Positions 51,382-61,174 of a DNA stretch of 64,000 nucleotides are shown here, piece after piece. A model generated the notes under the pieces. That model saw only the letters and a list, made by a program, of their open reading frames with translations. It did no database searches and was not told where the DNA came from. Origin of the DNA: Mesorhizobium sp. B1-1-8 (GTDB taxonomy: Bacteria; Pseudomonadota; Alphaproteobacteria; Rhizobiales; Rhizobiaceae); the NCBI RefSeq assembly GCF_006442795.2, contig NZ_CP083956.1:4565501-4629500 (forward strand). The letters are read 5' to 3'. How positions within the stretch are numbered: the stretch's first letter is position 1; each line of letters begins with the position of its first letter. Position numbers and translations under genes: made by a program.

Positions 51382-52542
51382 ATGCCGGGGGCTGACAATA
51401 CCGTGCTCATCACCGGAGCGCGCGCGCCGGTGGCGCTGCATCTGGCGAGGCTGCTCGATGGCGCAGGCCGTCGCGTGATCCTGGCCGACACGCCGGCCCG
51501 GCCCATCGCCGCCGCGAGCAAGGCCTGCGCGCGCTACTATCGGCTGCCGCCGCCGCGCTTCGAGCCGCAAGCCTATGCCGAAGCGATCGAGGCGCTGCTG
51601 CCCGAAGAGCAGATCGGCCTCGTCATCCCGACCTGCGAGGAGGTTTTCCACCTCGCGCTTACCTGGCGCGGCCGCGCCATGCCGGCTCGACTGTTCGCGC
51701 CCGGCATCGAGCTTCTGGCGGAAGTGCACAACAAGCATGCTTTCATGCGGCTGGCCGAGCGTATCGGCCTCGCGGTGCCAGAAACGACGCTGCTGCAATC
51801 ACAGGCCGATCTGGAGGCCGTGCGGAATCGCTCGCACGAGCTGGTGTTCAAACCCGTGTGGTCGCGCTTCGCCAGCCATGTGCTCTTACGCCCCTCGCCC
51901 GGCGAACTCGATGCCATCAATGCCTCGCCCGCCGCGCCTTGGGTGGCGCAGCGCTTTGTCGAAGGCGAGGAGATCAGCGCCTATGCGGTGGCGCGCGATG
52001 GCAGGCTCAAAGCACTGGCGCTTTATCGTTCGCTCTACCGCGCCGGCAAGGGCGCCGGCATTTACTTCGAACGGATGGAAGATGCAGCAGCGCGGAAGCT
52101 GGTCGAGCACATCGTCGCCGGCACAGTATGGACCGGGCAGATTTCGTTCGACCTGATGCGCGAGGCGGACGGCCGTGTGCTGCCGCTGGAATGCAACCCG
52201 CGCGCCGTCAGCGGCCTGCATTTCTTCCGCGATCCGGCACGCTTCGCGGAGGCGGTGCTGGGCGACGGTCCGGAAGTCCCGCCCGATGTCACCGCGCCGC
52301 AAACGGTGCGACTCGCCATGTGGATCTACGGATTGCGAGCGGCCTTGCGCTCGGGTGATCTCGGCAGATTCCGAAAGGCGATGCGCGAGGGGCGCGAATT
52401 GCTCGACTGGCCCGGCGATCCAGCGCCCATGAAGGCGCAATGGCCGGCGCTGGTCGAGATCGCGCGCACGGCCTTGCGCCAGCGTATCAGCCTGCAGGCG
52501 GCGTCGACGCGCGATATCGAGTGGAATGGGCCGGACGAGTAA
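51382..52542 (+). CDS. ATP-grasp domain enzyme
   Basis: 386 residues from ATG 51382 (MPGADNTVLITGARAPVALH). An N-terminal pre-ATP-grasp Rossmann-like domain (ILADTPARPIAAASKACARY, IGLVIPTCEEVFHLAL) precedes the ATP-grasp fold: ELVFKPVWSRFASHV, APWVAQRFVEGEEISAYAVA, and metal-binding LPLECNPRAVSGLHFF. Such enzymes join a carboxylate to an amine, thiol or another carboxylate using ATP. It converges on the KAS III operon and may belong to that pathway (inference). Confidence 0.88.
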   Translation: MPGADNTVLITGARAPVALHLARLLDGAGRRVILADTPARPIAAASKACARYYRLPPPRFEPQAYAEAIEALLPEEQIGLVIPTCEEVFHLALTWRGRAMPARLFAPGIELLAEVHNKHAFMRLAERIGLAVPETTLLQSQADLEAVRNRSHELVFKPVWSRFASHVLLRPSPGELDAINASPAAPWVAQRFVEGEEISAYAVARDGRLKALALYRSLYRAGKGAGIYFERMEDAAARKLVEHIVAGTVWTGQISFDLMREADGRVLPLECNPRAVSGLHFFRDPARFAEAVLGDGPEVPPDVTAPQTVRLAMWIYGLRAALRSGDLGRFRKAMREGRELLDWPGDPAPMKAQWPALVEIARTALRQRISLQAASTRDIEWNGPDE

Positions 52543-53092: not shown

Positions 53093-54085
53093 CTAAAGCT
53101 CGATCTGGTGCACCCTCGCCTCACTCGCGGCAGCCGGCAGCTTGCCATCCATGATGGCGGCGATGTCGCGGCGCAGGAAATCCAGCGGGCCGATCACCGG
53201 CAGGGTTTGCGGCGCGAAGCGGGCGTTGTCGCTTGCCGATTTCAGCACACGGCGATCTTGCTGAAGGGCGATGTTGAACAAAGGCCTGAAGGCCAGCGCC
53301 TTGAGCTCGCCAAGCCAGCCCTGCCGCCGTCCGATCAGCCAGCCGACACCCTCGACGGTGCGCTCGTCCGCTTGGCGCAGATGAAAGGTGGTGGCGAGCA
53401 CCAGCCCATCCTTGCCCCAATATTCCAGCTCGGCGATGCCGGGGTGGCGGAAGCGGCCGATGGTCCTGGCACGTTCGCCCTCCAGTAGCCGGCTGATCAG
53501 CCCCTGCTGACGGTCCTCGCCGGTATAGCAGGCTTCGACCCAGCCCTCGCCGCCGGTGACATCCACCCGAACCAGACGGCGCCTGGAGCTCAGCCCGCGA
53601 AGCAGACCCTTGTGGGTGAAGTGGGTGTGGGTGGCGTCGAGAATGTTTTCGGCGGCATCGATCACCGTCGACTGGGTCGAGCTGCGCACCCGCCGCACAA
53701 TGACGTCCTTGCCCTCCATGCAATGTAGGTAAGGTTCGCCCGCCGGCGCGCCGGTCGAGACGAAGATGATACCGTCGCGCTCGATCGCACTGTAACGTCG
53801 AACCCGGAAATGCGGCATCTCGCCGACATGGCCGGGAATGGTCGTGCAGCGGCCTTCGCCGTCATAGCGCCAGCCGTGATAGGGGCATTCGATCTCGCCG
53901 CCGACCACCTTGCCGGTCGACAATTCGACCAGCCGGTGCGGGCAGCGATCGAACAACGCGGCAATGCCATTGGCCGAACGGAACAGCACCAGCGGCGCGC
54001 CATCGAAGAGGATGCGCCTCGGCTTGCCTTTGACGTCGGCCGACAGCGCTACCGCCTGCCAATAGTCCTTCTTCCGATCGCTCAC
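53093..54085 (-). CDS. Rieske non-haem iron oxygenase
   Basis: 330 residues from GTG 54085 (overlap GTGA with the preceding gene). The Rieske [2Fe-2S] site is RCPHRLVEL (Cys48, His50) and ECPYHGWRY (Cys67, His70). The mononuclear iron ligands are in [13 protein letters not shown] (Asp150, His153, His158 in D-x2-H-x4-H). It lacks the long C-terminal half of ring-hydroxylating alpha subunits and resembles single-component demethylases/hydroxylases of the vanillate-demethylase type. Last gene of the operon; probably oxidises the pathway intermediate. Confidence 0.9.
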
Positions 54086-55212
54086 AGCTCGAACCTCCTG
54101 AGCAGAGGGATGCCGACCAGCGCCAATATTTTCTCCATGACGCGGACGGCCAGGCGTTTGCGCCACGAAAGATGACCGGCGTAGACGGCGTTGTATTCGA
54201 TCGCCGCGACAGCGCCGCGCAGACGCTTGAAGCCGGCGGCGCCAGCGCTCATGTTGAAGAACAGGCCCTGTGCTATGGCATGGTCCTGCGCCATCGCCAT
54301 CACCATGCGGTAAAGCCCTTCGCCGACCGGCAGGCCGGTGTCGTAGCCGACGATCGGCTGGGTAAGCGTGCCGCCGTTCTCGAACTGGCCGGTGACGGCG
54401 ACCAGCGCACCGTCCGCCCGGCGCAAGCCCGCCAGGCTGAGGATGCCGCGCCGGTGCATCTCGGCGATGTAGCGGGCGGTGTAATGCGGATTGAGCGGTG
54501 TGTACTTTTCCAGATAGAGCATGCCGTAGAGCTCTTCGGCGCGCGCATAGTCGGCCTCGGTGAAATCCGTGTTGCCGACCCGCTCGAACGGCGTGGTGGC
54601 GAGCCGTTTGCGGTCGCGCTTCATGTCGCGCGTCATCGCGCCACGATTGGCGAAGACATAGATCTGGCGCGCCGCCAGCATGCGGAAGCCGTCGGCCTTC
54701 AGCGCCGCGATGGTCGCAGGATCGGCGATCTCGTTCAGCGAGCGGATAATGATCGCGCGGTCGGGAAAACGCGCGACCAAAGCGGCACGCAGCTTTGCAA
54801 TAGTCGGGCGGGCGAGCACCGGATTGGTCGAATAAAGCCAGTTGTTGACCTGCACCTGATGGTCGAGGCCGCTCATCCTGACCAGCGGCGCGCAGGCGCC
54901 GATCAGCGCCCGGACTGCCCACCGCAGTATGGGATGCCAAGCGAAGTTGCGCGTTTCGTCGATGGCGTAGTCGAGATAGGCGCTGGATGGGCAGCAGATG
55001 TAGCAGTTCGGCGCCTCGCGCGCGTCGTTGAGGGTGAGCGGAAAGGTGCGGCCGCCGATCTCGAAAGTCTCGACCTTCACCGTCAGATTGGAGATGAGAT
55101 CCTGCGCCGGTATCTCATTGAAAAGGCTGACGAACGCCTCAACCATGGCCGGGTCATTCTCGACTTGGCCGGCCTTCTGGAACGGCTCGTCGAAGGTGGC
55201 GGCCCGGTTCAC
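54082..55212 (-). CDS. GNAT/FemAB-like acyltransferase
   Basis: 376 residues from GTG 55212, which overlaps the previous stop (GTGA) and has a ggag site; ATG 55233 is an alternative. An N-terminal domain of about 180 residues ([20 protein letters not shown]) has no clear relative; the C-terminal half shows the GNAT-like pattern: [60 protein letters not shown]. It probably transfers an acyl group to an amine. The acceptor is unknown. Confidence 0.75.
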
Positions 55213-56465
55213 GTCATCCGCTCCAGCCGGCATTCGACGCGACGCAGCTTGCGGCCGGTCTCCAGCGGCAGCCGGGCGCGGACGAGATCGACCACCGCTT
55301 TTGCCTGCCGTGCCGCCAGCAGCGCGCGCACCGCCTGGTGGGCGGCGGTTGCCGCTTCGTCCGCAAGCTCCGGAACAAGCCTGAGCTCGATGGCCGCGGG
55401 CGCGATCTGGACGAGGCGGAAATCGTCGATGCGGCGGTCGGCCTTGAGCACGGCATTACGCAGCACGTCGGGCGTGACCAGGACAGGACCGCTAACCGAG
55501 GAAAAGCAGAAAACGTCGTCCATGCGGCCGACGATCTCGTCGACACAGCGCAGCGGCGAGCCGCAGCGGCAAGGCGCTTGCGACAGCCGCAGCAGATCGT
55601 TCATCCGGTAACGCGCCATGATTTGTGTGTTTCGCCGAAAAGCAGTGACAAGCGGCGTCACCAGGCCGTCGCCCGCCGGCTCGAACTCAAAGCAAATCGA
55701 GTCTTCGGCAAGATGCAGGCCGCCGTGGCGGCAGGTCACCGCGAACAGCCCTTCGGTCGCCATGTAGATCTGGTCGAGCGGCAGCCGGAAGAAGCTCTCG
55801 ATGATCGGACGGTCGACCGGGTCGAGCGTTTCGGCGGCCGAGAAGACGCGCCGCGGCGCCAACCGGAAGCCGGCGCTTGCGAAATGCCTGAGCATCTTCG
55901 GCGGCGCGATTATCACCGTCGGGTTGAACGCCTCCAACGCCCCGCGCCAGCTTTCCGGTCCGAGCGTTAGGTCGAAGAAAGCGAGCTTGATAGACCTCGA
56001 TTTGCGGGCGCTGTCGTAGAGGCCGGTGTTCTGCGGCAGGATGACGGCGACGCGCAGGCCGCGCCACAGGAGATCGGGCGCAGCCTTGGCAAGGATCGTG
56101 CCCAGCCAGCGATATTTTTCCGCTTCCGAGATGACGAACAGGCCGCGATTGCCCGAGGTGCCGGTGCTGGCGCCGACGGTGAGCGCGCCGATACGGCCGT
56201 CGCCAGCCAGCGCGGCCCAGGCCGACGCGGCGGTCACATCGGCGATGTTGAAATCCGCGAAGCGAGCCATCAGCAACGCCTTGTCGGTGACCGGCAGCTT
56301 GGCGAGGCTGCGCGGCGCCTTGCCGTAGAATGGCGCGCGCGGCAGGTCGCGGTCGAGGAAGCGGCGCAAGGCGGCCGCCTGCCAGCGCTCGAAATTCGCG
56401 CGGCTCTTGCGCGAGACCCAGCGCGTCAGGGCAAAGGAACGAACCGCTTCCGCCAGGTCATTCAT
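55209..56465 (-). CDS. PaaK/F390-synthetase-like adenylate-forming enzyme
   Basis: 418 residues. The adenylation loop reads [13 protein letters not shown] (about residues 98-110), and a Cys-rich turn [20 protein letters not shown] with GRMDD is the PaaK-type zinc/hinge region. This is the phenylacetate-CoA ligase/F390-synthetase group, which activates a carboxylic acid as acyl-AMP and passes it to CoA or another acceptor. It overlaps both neighbours by four bases. Confidence 0.88.
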
Positions 56466-57295
56466 CCGGCCTCCCGCTCGCTTGTCTTGAGGTCATATGC
56501 CGTCGGCTTCGGATCATGGCAGAGCATCACCTCGCCGCCGGCGGCGAGAAAGCCGCGCAGCATGGCGCTGGTCGGCTCGATCGCCGCAGCATCTTCGGCG
56601 ATCAGCGTCGCCGGGAAGCCGGGCGTGCGGTCGCGGGTCAAGGCAGCCAGCAGCCACTGGACGTCGACAGCGTAGAGCAGCGGCCGCTCGAGGCCGGCAA
56701 AGAACAGGCCGAACTGCCCGTCGGCATGGCCCGGCAGATCGACTGCGATCGCGCTGCCGTCACCGAAGAGATCGGCACCGCCGGGCACACTGCCGCGCGC
56801 CTCGATCCGCCGCTTGGCGGACGGGCGGTCGAGCCGAGCCTCGAAATCGGCAGGGAAGAGTTCGGTGAAGACGCCATGGCGGATGTTCTGCCGGGGCGTT
56901 CTCGCCTTGACCCGGGCCCAGGCGGCCTCGCTTGCCACGAAGCGGGCGTTGCGGAACAGCGACAGGCCGGACATGTGGTCGGCATGGAAATGCGTGACGA
57001 TGACGGTGCGGACGTCGTCGGGCGAAAGGCCGAAGCGCTTCAGCACCGGCAGCACCTGCTCGGCGGCGTTGAGCTCGGGCCTGAGCAGCGCGCCGTAGAG
57101 GCGCAGCATCCGGCTGCGCCCCTCACCGGTGAGCGCTTCGGGGGTGTAGCCGGTGTCGACCAGCACCGGCCCGGCAAGAGGATGAAAGAACAGCCCGTAA
57201 CGGACGCGCAGCCTGACACTTCGCCAGCTGCCGCCACGCAGGATGAGCCATTCCGCGGCGGTAACCCAGGCGCTGTTGGCGAAGACGATTTTCAC
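56462..57295 (-). CDS. Metallo-beta-lactamase-fold hydrolase
   Basis: 277 residues from GTG 57295 (MKIVFANSAWVTAAEWLILR). The metal site is VTHFHADHMSGL (HxHxDH, residues 102-107), with PVLVDTGYTPEAL before and VDLPGHADGQFGLFF after it. In this setting it may be a thioesterase or lactonase. Four-base overlaps with both neighbours. Confidence 0.9.
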   Translation of the reverse strand: MKIVFANSAWVTAAEWLILRGGSWRSVRLRVRYGLFFHPLAGPVLVDTGYTPEALTGEGRSRMLRLYGALLRPELNAAEQVLPVLKRFGLSPDDVRTVIVTHFHADHMSGLSLFRNARFVASEAAWARVKARTPRQNIRHGVFTELFPADFEARLDRPSAKRRIEARGSVPGGADLFGDGSAIAVDLPGHADGQFGLFFAGLERPLLYAVDVQWLLAALTRDRTPGFPATLIAEDAAAIEPTSAMLRGFLAAGGEVMLCHDPKPTAYDLKTSEREAG

Positions 57296-58275
57296 GCCGA
57301 TCCCCCACCTGCGAAAGTTCGATCAAGCCCTTGTTCGAAAGAGATTTTCGGCTCCCAGCCAAGCATGCGCCGCGCCTTGGAAAGATCGAGGCTCTGGGCA
57401 TAGGCGAAGAGGCCGAGGCCGTAGCGTGTCGCCGGCGGCTCGGGACGGCCAGGCAAGCGCAATGCCACCACCTCCATCAGGCCTGCCGCCAGCATCGTGG
57501 GCCCAAGCGGCAGCGGCCGCCAGCGCGCCTTGAGCCCGGCGCTGGCGCAGGCCTCGTCGGCGATGCGGCGCACCGGCAGCACCTCGCCGCCGGAGATGTT
57601 GAAGACCTCGCCTTCGGTTTCTTTGGGCGCAGCGAGTGCTGTCATGATCGCGTCGACAACATCGTCGACATGGGTGAGATCGATCGAGGCCCGACCACCC
57701 CGAAACAGCGGCAGCGGCCGGGTCTTCGCCGCTTTGATCAGGCGCGGCAGCAAGGCGCGATCGCCGACGCCGTAGATGCCGCGCGGCCTTAGCACCACCG
57801 GATGGATGGCGGGCGCGGCGAGCGCGATCCGCTCCGCTTCCCGCTTGGTGCCCGCATAATGGTTGACCGGATCGGGCAAAGCGGCGTCCTCGGTGAGGCC
57901 GAGCTGATCGCGAAAGGCAAAGCTCACCGACGGGCTCGAAATGTGCACGAAGCGGCTGATGCCTTGCCGCGTGGCGAAGTCGACAAGATTTTGCGTCGCC
58001 GTCACATTGGCAGCCACAAAATCCGACAATCGACCGAACGGTGACGACAGCGCCGCGCAGTGGATGATCCGGTCGACTTTGCCGAGGCGAGCATCGAGCG
58101 CAACACTCAGCGGCTGCGACAGGTCGTGGCGGATGACGGCATGGCCTGCGGCCGCGAGCGCATCGCAGCGTTCGGCATCGCGGCCGAGGCCGAGAGCCGG
58201 AATGCCCATGGCCGCCAGCCGCGCCAGCACGTGGGAGCCCAAAAAACCGCTGGCGCCGGTGACGAGCACGACCAT
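57292..58275 (-). CDS. NAD(P)-dependent epimerase/dehydratase (extended SDR, OleD/3beta-HSD-like)
   Basis: 327 residues. TGASGFLGSHVLARLAAMG (Rossmann), HCAALSSPFG, HISSPSVSF and catalytic YAGTKREAE are present. It lies directly behind a KAS III gene, the same neighbourhood as OleD behind OleA in olefin/beta-lactone pathways, so reduction of a beta-keto product is plausible. ATG 58275 is two bases after the KAS III stop. Confidence 0.88.
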   Translation of the reverse strand: MVVLVTGASGFLGSHVLARLAAMGIPALGLGRDAERCDALAAAGHAVIRHDLSQPLSVALDARLGKVDRIIHCAALSSPFGRLSDFVAANVTATQNLVDFATRQGISRFVHISSPSVSFAFRDQLGLTEDAALPDPVNHYAGTKREAERIALAAPAIHPVVLRPRGIYGVGDRALLPRLIKAAKTRPLPLFRGGRASIDLTHVDDVVDAIMTALAAPKETEGEVFNISGGEVLPVRRIADEACASAGLKARWRPLPLGPTMLAAGLMEVVALRLPGRPEPPATRYGLGLFAYAQSLDLSKARRMLGWEPKISFEQGLDRTFAGGGSA

Positions 58276-58277
58276 CG

Positions 58278-59270
58278 TCAGGTTTCCAGCGCCATGCCGC
58301 CGAAGGAGACGCCGGCCGAAGTGCCGAGGAAGAGCAGTTTCATGCCAGGCGCCGCCCGGCCGTCACGGCGCGCGATATCGAGCGCGAAGGGAATGGAGGC
58401 GGCGATCTGGTTGCCGAAGCGGGCCGAAATATCGACGAGCTTCTCGGGCGCGAAACCGGTCTGGCGCGCCATATGGGCAAGCGCGAAGGGGCTTGCCTGG
58501 TGCGGCACGACGAGATCGACGTCGTCGCGTCGCCAGCCGGCGCGCTCAAGCAAGGCTGAAACGAAGCCGTTGAAATGACGCGAGGTGACGCGGAACAGTT
58601 CCTTGCCGTCCATGTGGAACAGGCTGTGGCGGGCAAATTCTTCGGGCTCCGTGTGGAAATCGAAACGCGTGCCGCCGGAACCGATGCCGCAGGCCTCCCA
58701 GGCCGACGGATAGGTTCGCATCAGGCTGGCAGCCATCTTGCCCTCGCTGGGTTCTGCCTTGCGCAGCACGGCCGCCGCCGCGCCATCACCGAAAAGTGCG
58801 GCAACCTCCGGCGCGTCGCGCCACGGCAGCGCGCGCGAGGCGATCTCCGCGGAGAAGACCAACGCGGTTTCGCATTGCTCCGCCTCGATCATGCGGCCGG
58901 CGGTCTCGAAGGCGGTGAGGAAGCCGAGGCAGGTGCTGTTGACGTCGAAAGCGGCTGCCGAACCATCGGCAAGGCCGAGGCGCTGCATGACGAGCGGCGC
59001 CGTCGCCGGCAGCGGCTGGTAGGGCACGCCGCAGCCGCCGACGATCAGGTCGACTGCCTTGGCCTCGATCCCCGCATCGTCAAGCGCCAGCCGCGCCGCG
59101 GCAGAAGCGAGGTCGATCTGCGATTCGCCCGCGCAGACATAGCGTTCGACGACCCCCGACGCGGTCTCGAGCACGCCCTGGGCGAGGCTGAGCCTCCCTT
59201 CCAGCGCGCGCGTGGTCACGCACCCTGCCGGCACCGCCCTGCCGGTTCCGACGATCCTGATCCGCATCAC
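58278..59270 (-). CDS. 3-oxoacyl-ACP synthase III (KAS III/FabH-like)
   Basis: 330 residues. Active-site Cys114 in DVNSTCLGFLTAFE, His257 in VVPHQASPF, and Asn287 in ARFGNQIAASIP complete the thiolase-fold triad. The start MMRIRIVGTGRAVPAG is typical. It is not a housekeeping FabH (the C-terminus and Cys loop differ) but a secondary-metabolism type that condenses an acyl-CoA or acyl-ACP with a second substrate. First gene of the six-gene operon; ggggggag precedes the start. Confidence 0.92.
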   Translation of the reverse strand: MMRIRIVGTGRAVPAGCVTTRALEGRLSLAQGVLETASGVVERYVCAGESQIDLASAAARLALDDAGIEAKAVDLIVGGCGVPYQPLPATAPLVMQRLGLADGSAAAFDVNSTCLGFLTAFETAGRMIEAEQCETALVFSAEIASRALPWRDAPEVAALFGDGAAAAVLRKAEPSEGKMAASLMRTYPSAWEACGIGSGGTRFDFHTEPEEFARHSLFHMDGKELFRVTSRHFNGFVSALLERAGWRRDDVDLVVPHQASPFALAHMARQTGFAPEKLVDISARFGNQIAASIPFALDIARRDGRAAPGMKLLFLGTSAGVSFGGMALET

Positions 59271-59367: not shown

Positions 59368-60159
59368 TTACCGGAAAAACCGCATCACCGCGTCCATGAA
59401 TTCCACCGGGCGCTCGACGTTGAGCAGGTGGACGCCGGAAAGCAGCACAAGCTCGGCGCCGGGGATCGCCGCCGCGATCGCTTCGCTGTGGCTGGCCAGC
59501 GTCACCTTGTCGTCAACACCGCCGATGACCAGCGTCGGCGCGGTAATCAGCGAAATTGGGCGGCGCAGGTCGGCGTCGCGCACCGCGGCGAAGCATCCCG
59601 CGAGCCCCTGCGGCGACATCGCCAGGATCGCGGCGTGGAATTCCTCGACCGTATTGTTCGGCCCGGTCAGCATCGAGGCCGGGAACCAGTTGCGCATGAA
59701 CATGTCCGCCGTCGCCGACAGGTCGCTCGCCGCAAGCACATTGCGGATCTGCTCGTCGAAATAGGACGCTGGTCCAAGATGCGGCGAAGTATTGGACAGG
59801 ACCAACCGCTCGATGCGCTCCGGCGCATGGATGCCCAGCCACTGGCCGACGAAGCCGCCCAGCGAGAGCCCCAGGAAATGCACGCGCGCGATCCCGAGGA
59901 AATCGAGCAGTTCGAGCACGTCGCGGCCCAACCGGTCGAGCGAATAGGCTCCGGCCGGCGCATCGGAACCGCCATGGCCGCGCAGGTCGTAACGCAGCAC
60001 CCGGAAGGATTTGGCCAATTCCGGAACCTGCCCGTCCCACATGTGCAGCGTCGTTGCGATGGAATTGGAAAGCACAAGCACCGGCCGGTTTTCCGGGCCA
60101 TCCAGCCTGTATGCAATGCGGGCGCTGTCGCCCGCCGTGAATTGAAGCGTTTCGGCCAT
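59368..60159 (-). CDS. Alpha/beta hydrolase, 3-oxoadipate enol-lactonase-like
   Basis: 263 residues from ATG 60159 with ribosome-binding site gagg. Oxyanion region VLSNSIATTLHMWDGQVPEL, RYDLRGHGGSDAP, nucleophile elbow FLGLSLGGFVGQW (Ser), and catalytic His in GVHLLNVERP. The pattern is PcaD-like. No other pca gene is present. It lies 97 bp upstream of the KAS III operon on the same strand and is divergent from a LysR gene. Confidence 0.9.
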   Translation of the reverse strand: MAETLQFTAGDSARIAYRLDGPENRPVLVLSNSIATTLHMWDGQVPELAKSFRVLRYDLRGHGGSDAPAGAYSLDRLGRDVLELLDFLGIARVHFLGLSLGGFVGQWLGIHAPERIERLVLSNTSPHLGPASYFDEQIRNVLAASDLSATADMFMRNWFPASMLTGPNNTVEEFHAAILAMSPQGLAGCFAAVRDADLRRPISLITAPTLVIGGVDDKVTLASHSEAIAAAIPGAELVLLSGVHLLNVERPVEFMDAVMRFFR

Positions 60160-60277
60160 TTTGATCCTCATGTTTGTTTGGCGGGAAGCGCCGTCCCGCG
60201 TCAGTGAGGAAGGCTAGGTCTGGTTACTATCGAAGAAAATTACTATGGTTAGACAATCTCTGTAGGAGATTTCGACA
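60160..60277. promoter_or_regulatory. Divergent hydrolase/LysR promoter region
   Basis: 118 bp. ggttactatcgaag and attactatggttag (60219-60253) form a direct repeat of ttactat spaced 20 bp, a candidate LysR site. Confidence 0.45.
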
Positions 60278-61174
60278 TTGCATGATCTGAAACTCCACGA
60301 CCTGAGGTGTTTCGATGCCGTCGTGAGCGAGGGCAGCTTCCAGGCTGCGGCCCTTGCCCTGAACCGGACGCATCCATCGGTCTTTGCCGCCGTCGCGCGG
60401 CTCGAAGAACAACTTGGCCTCGCCTTGCTGGACCGCAGCGGATACCGCGTAAGCCTGACTGAGGAAGGCCGCCTGTTTCACAAGCGGGCGCGACTGGCAC
60501 TGCATGAGCTAGGGCATCTGCAAGCGTATGCGGGCCAATTGGCAAGCGGCGAGGAAACCATCCTGCGCGTCGTCATGGGCGATGTCTGTCCGAGACCCAG
60601 AATCCTCGGCCTGCTCAGCCGCTTCTTCGCGGAGCGGACCCGGACCCGCCTGCGTCTGGAATATGAGGCGATCAGCGGGCCGCTCGAGCGGTTGATGGAC
60701 GCCGAAGCTGATCTCATCTTCCACCGCGCCAATCCTTCCGATCCGCGTCTCGAGCGGGTCGATCTTTGCCAGGTTAACTTCGTGCCGGTGGTGGCACCGG
60801 GCTTCCTGCCCTTCGAAAGGGAGCATGACATCACCCCGGAAGCGATGCGGCCCTTCACCCAGTGCGTGATCCGCGACACTGCGCGGCGATCGTCGCCCGA
60901 GAATTTCTTCGTCATCGACGGCGCCCATTCCTGTTCGGTGCCGGACCACATGATGAAGAAGGAGCTGATCCTGCACGGGCTGGCCTGGGGCCATCTGCCC
61001 CAGTGGCTGATCGAGGATGAGCTCGGCGATGGGCGGCTGGTCTCCATTTCCGGCAGGCATATTCCCGGCCGTACCGAGACCGTTGCAGCCTTGCGCCGGC
61101 GCGACCAGCCGCATGGGCCGGTGTCCGACGCGTTATGGCTCTATCTTCAGGCGCATGGGCGCGACACGCCCTGA
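60278..61174 (+). CDS. LysR-family transcriptional regulator
   Basis: 298 residues from TTG 60278 (ribosome-binding site taggag). Winged helix LHDLRCFDAVVSEGSFQAAA, THPSVFAAVARLEEQLGLAL. The effector domain follows (VVMGDVCPRPRILGLLSRFF). It is divergent from the PcaD-like hydrolase and likely controls it, and possibly the KAS III operon beyond. Confidence 0.92.
   Translation: MHDLKLHDLRCFDAVVSEGSFQAAALALNRTHPSVFAAVARLEEQLGLALLDRSGYRVSLTEEGRLFHKRARLALHELGHLQAYAGQLASGEETILRVVMGDVCPRPRILGLLSRFFAERTRTRLRLEYEAISGPLERLMDAEADLIFHRANPSDPRLERVDLCQVNFVPVVAPGFLPFEREHDITPEAMRPFTQCVIRDTARRSSPENFFVIDGAHSCSVPDHMMKKELILHGLAWGHLPQWLIEDELGDGRLVSISGRHIPGRTETVAALRRRDQPHGPVSDALWLYLQAHGRDTP

Follow-up and report, generated by a model that had tools for sequence, protein, structure and literature searches.

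A conserved four-gene core with exchangeable partner enzymes in Mesorhizobium and other bacteria: a candidate pathway for polar lipids

Introduction

The 64,000-nucleotide stretch of Mesorhizobium sp. B1-1-8 DNA analysed here (contig NZ_CP083956.1, positions 4,565,501 to 4,629,500; hereafter the window) encodes a compact gene unit built around a β-ketoacyl-acyl carrier protein synthase of type III (KAS). The closest structurally solved relatives of this enzyme, MxnB and CorB, build the alpha-pyrone antibiotics myxopyronin and corallopyronin (PMC4578411, PMC5724707) and are placed in the FabH clade (PMC4578411). OleA and PpyS employ a glutamate base that acts across the dimer, E117 and E105, respectively (PMC4578411), whereas MxnB and CorB are described as lacking a glutamate of this type (PMC4578411, PMC5724707). 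In the OleABCD system a condensing enzyme, a short-chain dehydrogenase/reductase (SDR), an adenylate-forming enzyme and a hydrolase act together in a head-to-head route to long-chain olefins or beta-lactones. Another relevant system is the BtaA/BtaB pathway of betaine-lipid synthesis; the DUF3419 family strongly matches BtaA (PMC6642084).

In the window, the KAS gene is followed by genes for an SDR, a metallo-beta-lactamase-fold (MBL) hydrolase and an adenylate-forming enzyme related to coenzyme F390 synthetases (the ligase, LIG). These four genes, referred to here as the quartet, recur in 80 loci, where the enzyme encoded beside them changes from one locus to another. On balance, the quartet appears to be a portable pathway to a common fatty-acyl-derived, hydroxyl-bearing scaffold, onto which an exchangeable neighbour enzyme would attach a polar head.

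A conserved quartet with exchangeable partners

A frame check of the window confirmed that all six reading frames previously listed on the minus strand, at 53093-59270, are open (Table 1). Four-base overlaps connect the SDR and MBL, MBL and ligase, ligase and GNAT-fold transferase, and GNAT and Rieske oxygenase genes, and the KAS and SDR genes are 2 bases apart. These coordinates bear out the tight coupling described in the first-pass annotation, which was also right that the unit genes include no polyketide synthase (PKS) or nonribosomal peptide synthetase. Its view of the genes as one functional unit is supported too, with one member missing from its list: a convergent ATP-grasp ligase (ATPG) gene is part of the unit, bringing it to seven genes with the KAS-SDR-MBL-LIG quartet as core. 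ATPG genes lie beside or inside the unit in Shinella, Rhizobium, roseobacters, sphingomonads, Paraburkholderia and Bacilli. The linkage of the unit genes exceeds chance, because they stay together across gene orders and orientations while the genes flanking them in the window recur at few loci.

A scan of genome contigs gave 558 confirmed stretches, of which the 80 best entered the locus set; plasmid records and additional genomes supplied more. Of 111 loci examined, the 80 with a whole quartet were kept, so that quartet completeness among them is a product of selection. The 31 dropped loci are near-copies, truncated or incomplete: 19 near-identical Mesorhizobium loci together with L024, L025 and L113; L029 and L088, from one genome and at a contig edge; L036, a duplicate of L104; the truncated L067, L100, L110 and L112; L125, in which the other three quartet genes and ATPG match and KAS does not; and L126 from Fusobacterium, which carries all four quartet genes and no recognised partner. 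A Pseudomonas plasmid locus with the ligase alone (L008) was never in the locus table. KAS, SDR and MBL share one strand in 80/80 loci, and gene order varies. Apparent rearrangements at L063, L070 and L080 were rejected, since the odd order in each comes from over-long reading-frame starts.

Exactly one of five partner types accompanies the quartet in 74 of the 80 loci: ATPG (49), a divergent BtaA-like DUF3419 protein (BTAA; 8), a PAP2 protein (7), a glycosyltransferase (GT; 6) or a sulfotransferase (SULF; 4). The other six have none, and no second partner type was detected in any of the 80 by blastp at E values up to 1e-8. Taken alone, this exclusivity is not independent evidence, since the non-ATPG reference enzymes were found by inspecting loci without ATPG. 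Partner labels mapped onto a quartet tree require at least 13 changes when 'none' is left out and 19 when it is counted, with BTAA alone needing 7; the tree (81 rows) is a quick LG+G4 estimate whose sole branch support is SH-aLRT, and unusual composition was flagged in 33 rows. Eighteen genomes with a different partner beside the quartet were searched for an ATPG homologue, and 15 gave none; several are metagenome-assembled genomes (MAGs), in which absence is uncertain. The search matched three of three positive controls. The exceptions are a 244-bit match in an Acidobacteria MAG, on part of a contig that carries no quartet genes, and two weak ones in Maricaulis, scoring 58 and 64 bits.

Among the accessory genes, the Rieske gene occurs in 39/80 loci, accompanying ATPG in 35/49 and BTAA in 4/8, and the GNAT gene is present with ATPG in 44/49 and with BTAA in 2/8. 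A fatty-acid hydroxylase occurs with PAP2 only (7/7), and a desaturase in five of those seven loci. The partners of the Escherichia coli type belong to PAP2_3, FA_hydroxylase and FA_desaturase; the hydroxylase remotely resembles the ornithine-lipid hydroxylase OlsE (66.6 bits, cut-off 475). The PAP2_3 family takes in sphingolipid phospho-headgroup transferases.

Sharing of a BtaA-family partner with betaine-lipid synthesis extends to 8 of the 80 loci. DUF3419 proteins were searched in 16 genomes, eight with a BTAA partner and eight with ATPG, and their positions compared by hand with the quartet loci. Nine divergent copies (125-162 bits) all sit at quartets, whereas seven canonical-scoring copies (349-383 bits) all lie elsewhere; Allorhizobium has one of each kind, and two ATPG genomes have none. 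The BtaA-like partner therefore looks like a separate, dedicated subfamily, and its acceptor is presumably not diacylglycerol. The window operon contains no BtaA, and the only DUF3419 copy of its genome, a canonical-scoring BtaA (378 bits; G000:C1:2627023-2628150), lies about 2 Mb from the unit.

The condensing enzyme and the reductase

The nearest solved structures to KAS are MxnB (4v2p) and CorB, with profile scores of 313 and 303 bits. The Cys-His-Asn triad that these enzymes share with KAS (Cys114, His257, Asn287) is present in 81/81 alignment rows, and the position of the OleA/PpyS glutamate, matched by eye in alignments to MxnB V94, is occupied by Ile in 54 rows and Leu in 27, with no Glu in any. 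MxnB and CorB differ in context: here no PKS stands in the unit, KAS is followed by a reductase, a ligase and a hydrolase, and pyrone formation is not indicated. KAS is nearest to MxnB and CorB and shares their lack of the glutamate, so both a two-chain condensation with an activated nucleophile and a FabH-like malonyl condensation are possible.

The first-pass annotation had likened the KAS-SDR order to OleA-OleD. An OleABCD-type head-to-head route with substituted parts would explain why OleD is the best NCBIfam match of the SDR, and why condensing, reducing, adenylating and hydrolysing enzymes stand together. However, the likeness is not borne out by the condensing enzyme, which lacks the OleA/PpyS glutamate and is nearest to MxnB/CorB: a sequence search of solved structures gave 168 bits to MxnB against 63-72 bits to the OleA-type chains. 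The SDR, whose Tyr140 and Lys144 are present in 81/81 rows, reaches 172.5 bits against the OleD model NF042422, far under its cut-off of 580. OleB is an alpha/beta hydrolase; an MBL-fold enzyme stands in its place here and a TIGR02304-type ligase in that of OleC, with exchangeable headgroup-type enzymes adjacent. The unit thus holds no OleA-type KAS with a glutamate base, no above-threshold OleD-type reductase and no OleB with OleC, and an olefin product would offer headgroup enzymes no site of attachment. An Ole-type route is accordingly very unlikely, and the further remark of the earlier annotation, that the remaining genes are unlike known olefin or beta-lactone loci, is well founded.

The hydrolase and the ligase

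The MBL hydrolase scores 53.5 bits against the AttM model (cut-off 390), and its His102, His104, Asp106, His107, His190, Asp211 and His260 are present in 81/81 rows. The ligase matches TIGR02304 at 256.7 bits, above the cut-off of 251.9, and has no Pfam match; S100, G102, S104, G105, E238, G239, D290 and K406 are invariant in 61 sequences. Coenzyme F390 chemistry is present in this family by name only, and we know of no reaction assigned to it. Among the transposon mutants of Pseudomonas syringae pv. actinidiae, a results table includes one in a gene labelled 'coenzyme F390 synthetase' (PMC9823363), and a protein of that name is mentioned in phenol degradation (PMC5501837); neither the table of the former nor the mention in the latter identifies the quartet pathway. 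On the Pseudomonas megaplasmid pMPPla107 (L008:7896-9194), an F390-synthetase-related ligase is encoded with the rest of the quartet not nearby.

The GNAT, ATP-grasp and Rieske enzymes

Sequence searches for solved relatives of the GNAT (GCN5-related N-acetyltransferase) and ATPG proteins returned nothing useful, so predicted folds were compared instead. The GNAT model (mean predicted local distance difference test score, pLDDT, 91) is closest to aminoacyl-tRNA-dependent peptide synthases, FemX and MprF, with other tandem GNATs not far behind. Its best alignments to two-domain folds span about residue 15 to 361, most of the protein. On this model, the N-terminus, which had been taken for a domain of unknown kind, forms the leading half of the two-domain GNAT structure. 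The Cys-rich string CYICCPSS noted there exists, but among its cysteines only C73 is at least 90% conserved in an alignment of 41 GNAT sequences (as is P75), the other two falling below that. Sequence identity to FemABX/MprF proteins is 7-16%, and unlike MprF the protein has no membrane domain. Because the nearest folds are aminoacyl-tRNA-dependent transferases, the model suggests an amino-acid headgroup in the window.

The ATP-grasp protein reaches 325.8 bits against PRK06849, below the cut-off of 406. Its AF2 model (mean pLDDT 95) shares its fold with GAR synthetase, PurK and L-amino acid ligases, a likeness too broad to settle the substrate.

The Rieske protein carries CPH...CPYH at residues 48-70, the CxH...CxxH motif of a [2Fe-2S] centre. 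D150, H153 and H158 are present in the window protein, and the two histidines, putative ligands of a 2-His-1-carboxylate iron site, are retained in at least 95% of 40 rows. Could the unit be a sterol- or hopanoid-modifying cluster, with an SdmA-like Rieske enzyme and an SdmB-like SDR? This is scarcely credible: the Rieske protein matches SdmA at its N-terminal part (77.8 bits, residues 6-115 of 330) and the SDR matches SdmB (31.9 bits), but both scores are far below the cut-offs of 600, and a Rieske gene stands with the quartet in fewer than half of the loci.

Coordinates and flanking genes

Table 1. The gene unit and two upstream genes in the window
Feature	Position in window	Strand	Start/stop	Length (aa)	Assignment or remark
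KAS III-type condensing enzyme, MxnB/CorB-like	58278..59270	-	GTG start	330	Pfam ACP_syn_III
Extended SDR reductase	57292..58275	-	ATG start	327	best NCBIfam match OleD, below cut-off
MBL-fold hydrolase, remotely AHL-lactonase-like	56462..57295	-	GTG start	277	Pfam Lactamase_B
F390-synthetase-related, PaaK-type adenylate-forming enzyme (LIG)	55209..56465	-	ATG start	418	TIGR02304
Two-domain GNAT-fold transferase, FemX/MprF-like fold	54082..55212	-	GTG start	376	PF13480
Rieske non-haem iron oxygenase	53093..54085	-	GTG start, TAG stop	330	Pfam Rieske
Convergent ATP-grasp ligase (ATPG), seventh member	51382..52542	+		386	PRK06849 (below cut-off), fold, linkage
pcaD-like hydrolase	59368..60171	same as unit			97 bases upstream of unit; just below TIGR02427 cut-off
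LysR gene	60278..61174				upstream of unit
AHL, acyl-homoserine lactone.

The pcaD-like, M20 and LysR genes flanking the unit were considered as members and rejected, being found at only 6, 6 and 7 of 111 loci. An operon serving the breakdown of an aromatic or lactone compound would accommodate the pcaD-like gene, so close upstream on the same strand with a near-threshold score, and the PaaK-type ligase. Yet the pcaD-like gene was found at five Mesorhizobium-type loci and one other at 29% identity, the quartet persists where it is gone, and catabolism leaves the BtaA-like, PAP2 and sulfotransferase partners unexplained; this role is highly improbable. A Pho box upstream of KAS was also considered and rejected: the scan matched 7 of 14 positions in the 100 bases before the window gene, and no other locus exceeded its shuffled sequences.

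Distribution across genomes

The first-pass annotation had proposed a search for the gene neighbourhood in other genomes, and the unit is indeed conserved outside the strain. The 80 compared loci are mostly from Alphaproteobacteria, and also from Beta- and Gammaproteobacteria and Bacilli. With the GNAT protein as query, the unit was found in 3 of the 8 listed genomes of the genus, its own included. The distribution of the ligase family is sporadic: at stringent E-values it occurs in 2/385 same-class, 11/199 same-family and 7/398 same-phylum genomes, the window genome counted each time, and in 2/369 genomes of the class of genome G1040, G1040 included. In the E. coli form, the quartet is joined by PAP2, fatty-acid hydroxylase and desaturase. 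Of 5,426 complete E. coli genomes, 671 match this form over no less than 80% of the query, and both records viewed (L006:7164-14045, L129:1501-8382) place it between narI and purU.

In the Fusobacterium vincentii locus (L126) the SDR, MBL, LIG and KAS homologues are clustered with no recognised partner enzyme. A contig filed as a Flavobacteriaceae MAG (L066) nests among roseobacters in the quartet tree and is probably misbinned or transferred. No description of the cluster was found in the titles and abstract beginnings of openly licensed papers, and one may exist elsewhere.

A proposed pathway

The analysis shows directly that the genes are coupled and conserved, that partners switch and that catalytic motifs are intact, and it gives predicted folds; the steps that follow are all drawn from family chemistry. 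KAS would load an acyl chain on Cys114 and condense this chain with another acyl unit, in the manner of MxnB/CorB or of FabH, and the SDR would reduce the ketone left by this condensation. The ligase would adenylate a carboxylate, and the MBL enzyme may hydrolyse a lactone or thioester. Oxygenation in Mesorhizobium would fall to the Rieske enzyme, and installation of an amino-acid or related headgroup to the GNAT of FemX/MprF fold together with the ATP-grasp ligase, yielding an aminoacyl lipid; judged by the models, the headgroup of the putative scaffold in the window is probably aminoacyl. An N-acylated, oxygenated lipid had been suggested earlier: an oxygenated, lipid-like product is plausible, but N-acylation is doubtful, as a FemX/MprF-like fold fits aminoacylation better.

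The GNAT fold, the ATPG fold, the remotely OlsE-like hydroxylase and PAP2_3, considered jointly, suggest a hydroxylated lipid scaffold with exchangeable heads. Many of the partner genes are directly adjacent to unit genes or overlap with them; the exceptions weigh against this proposal. Alternatively, and close to the view of the first-pass annotation, the quartet may make a secreted small molecule, a signal or antibiotic, with the swapped enzymes as ordinary natural-product tailoring. Such a product would suit the kinship of KAS with builders of alpha-pyrone antibiotics (PMC4578411, PMC5724707), the remotely AHL-lactonase-like MBL enzyme, the scattered distribution (for instance among same-family genomes) and the remote likeness of the GT to rifamycin and macrolide glycosyltransferases. 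However, several partners are enzymes of lipid type (BtaA-like, PAP2_3, fatty-acid hydroxylase and desaturase), and the neighbour clusters showed no conspicuous resistance gene or dedicated exporter, on a coarse list in which small carrier proteins are near the size limit and an ABC-ATPase cluster, present in 20/75 loci, was not examined for linkage. A secreted small molecule is rather unlikely, and the BtaA-like, PAP2, sulfotransferase and glycosyltransferase partners make a polar lipid more plausible than a diffusible signal.

More tentatively, the polar lipids proposed here may constitute a new bacterial class, found from rhizobia to Bacilli and E. coli, with a backbone that comes from KAS III-type condensation and not from glycerol phosphate or the serine palmitoyltransferase reaction, and with interchangeable enzymes for amino-acid, homoserine-type, sulfate, sugar or phosphate headgroups. 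If so, a class of lipids would have been overlooked in well-studied bacteria, carriers among E. coli included. Bacteria that share one backbone but alternate in their headgroup enzymes would serve as a natural test of headgroup function, and TIGR02304, which now has only a misleading name, would gain a function.

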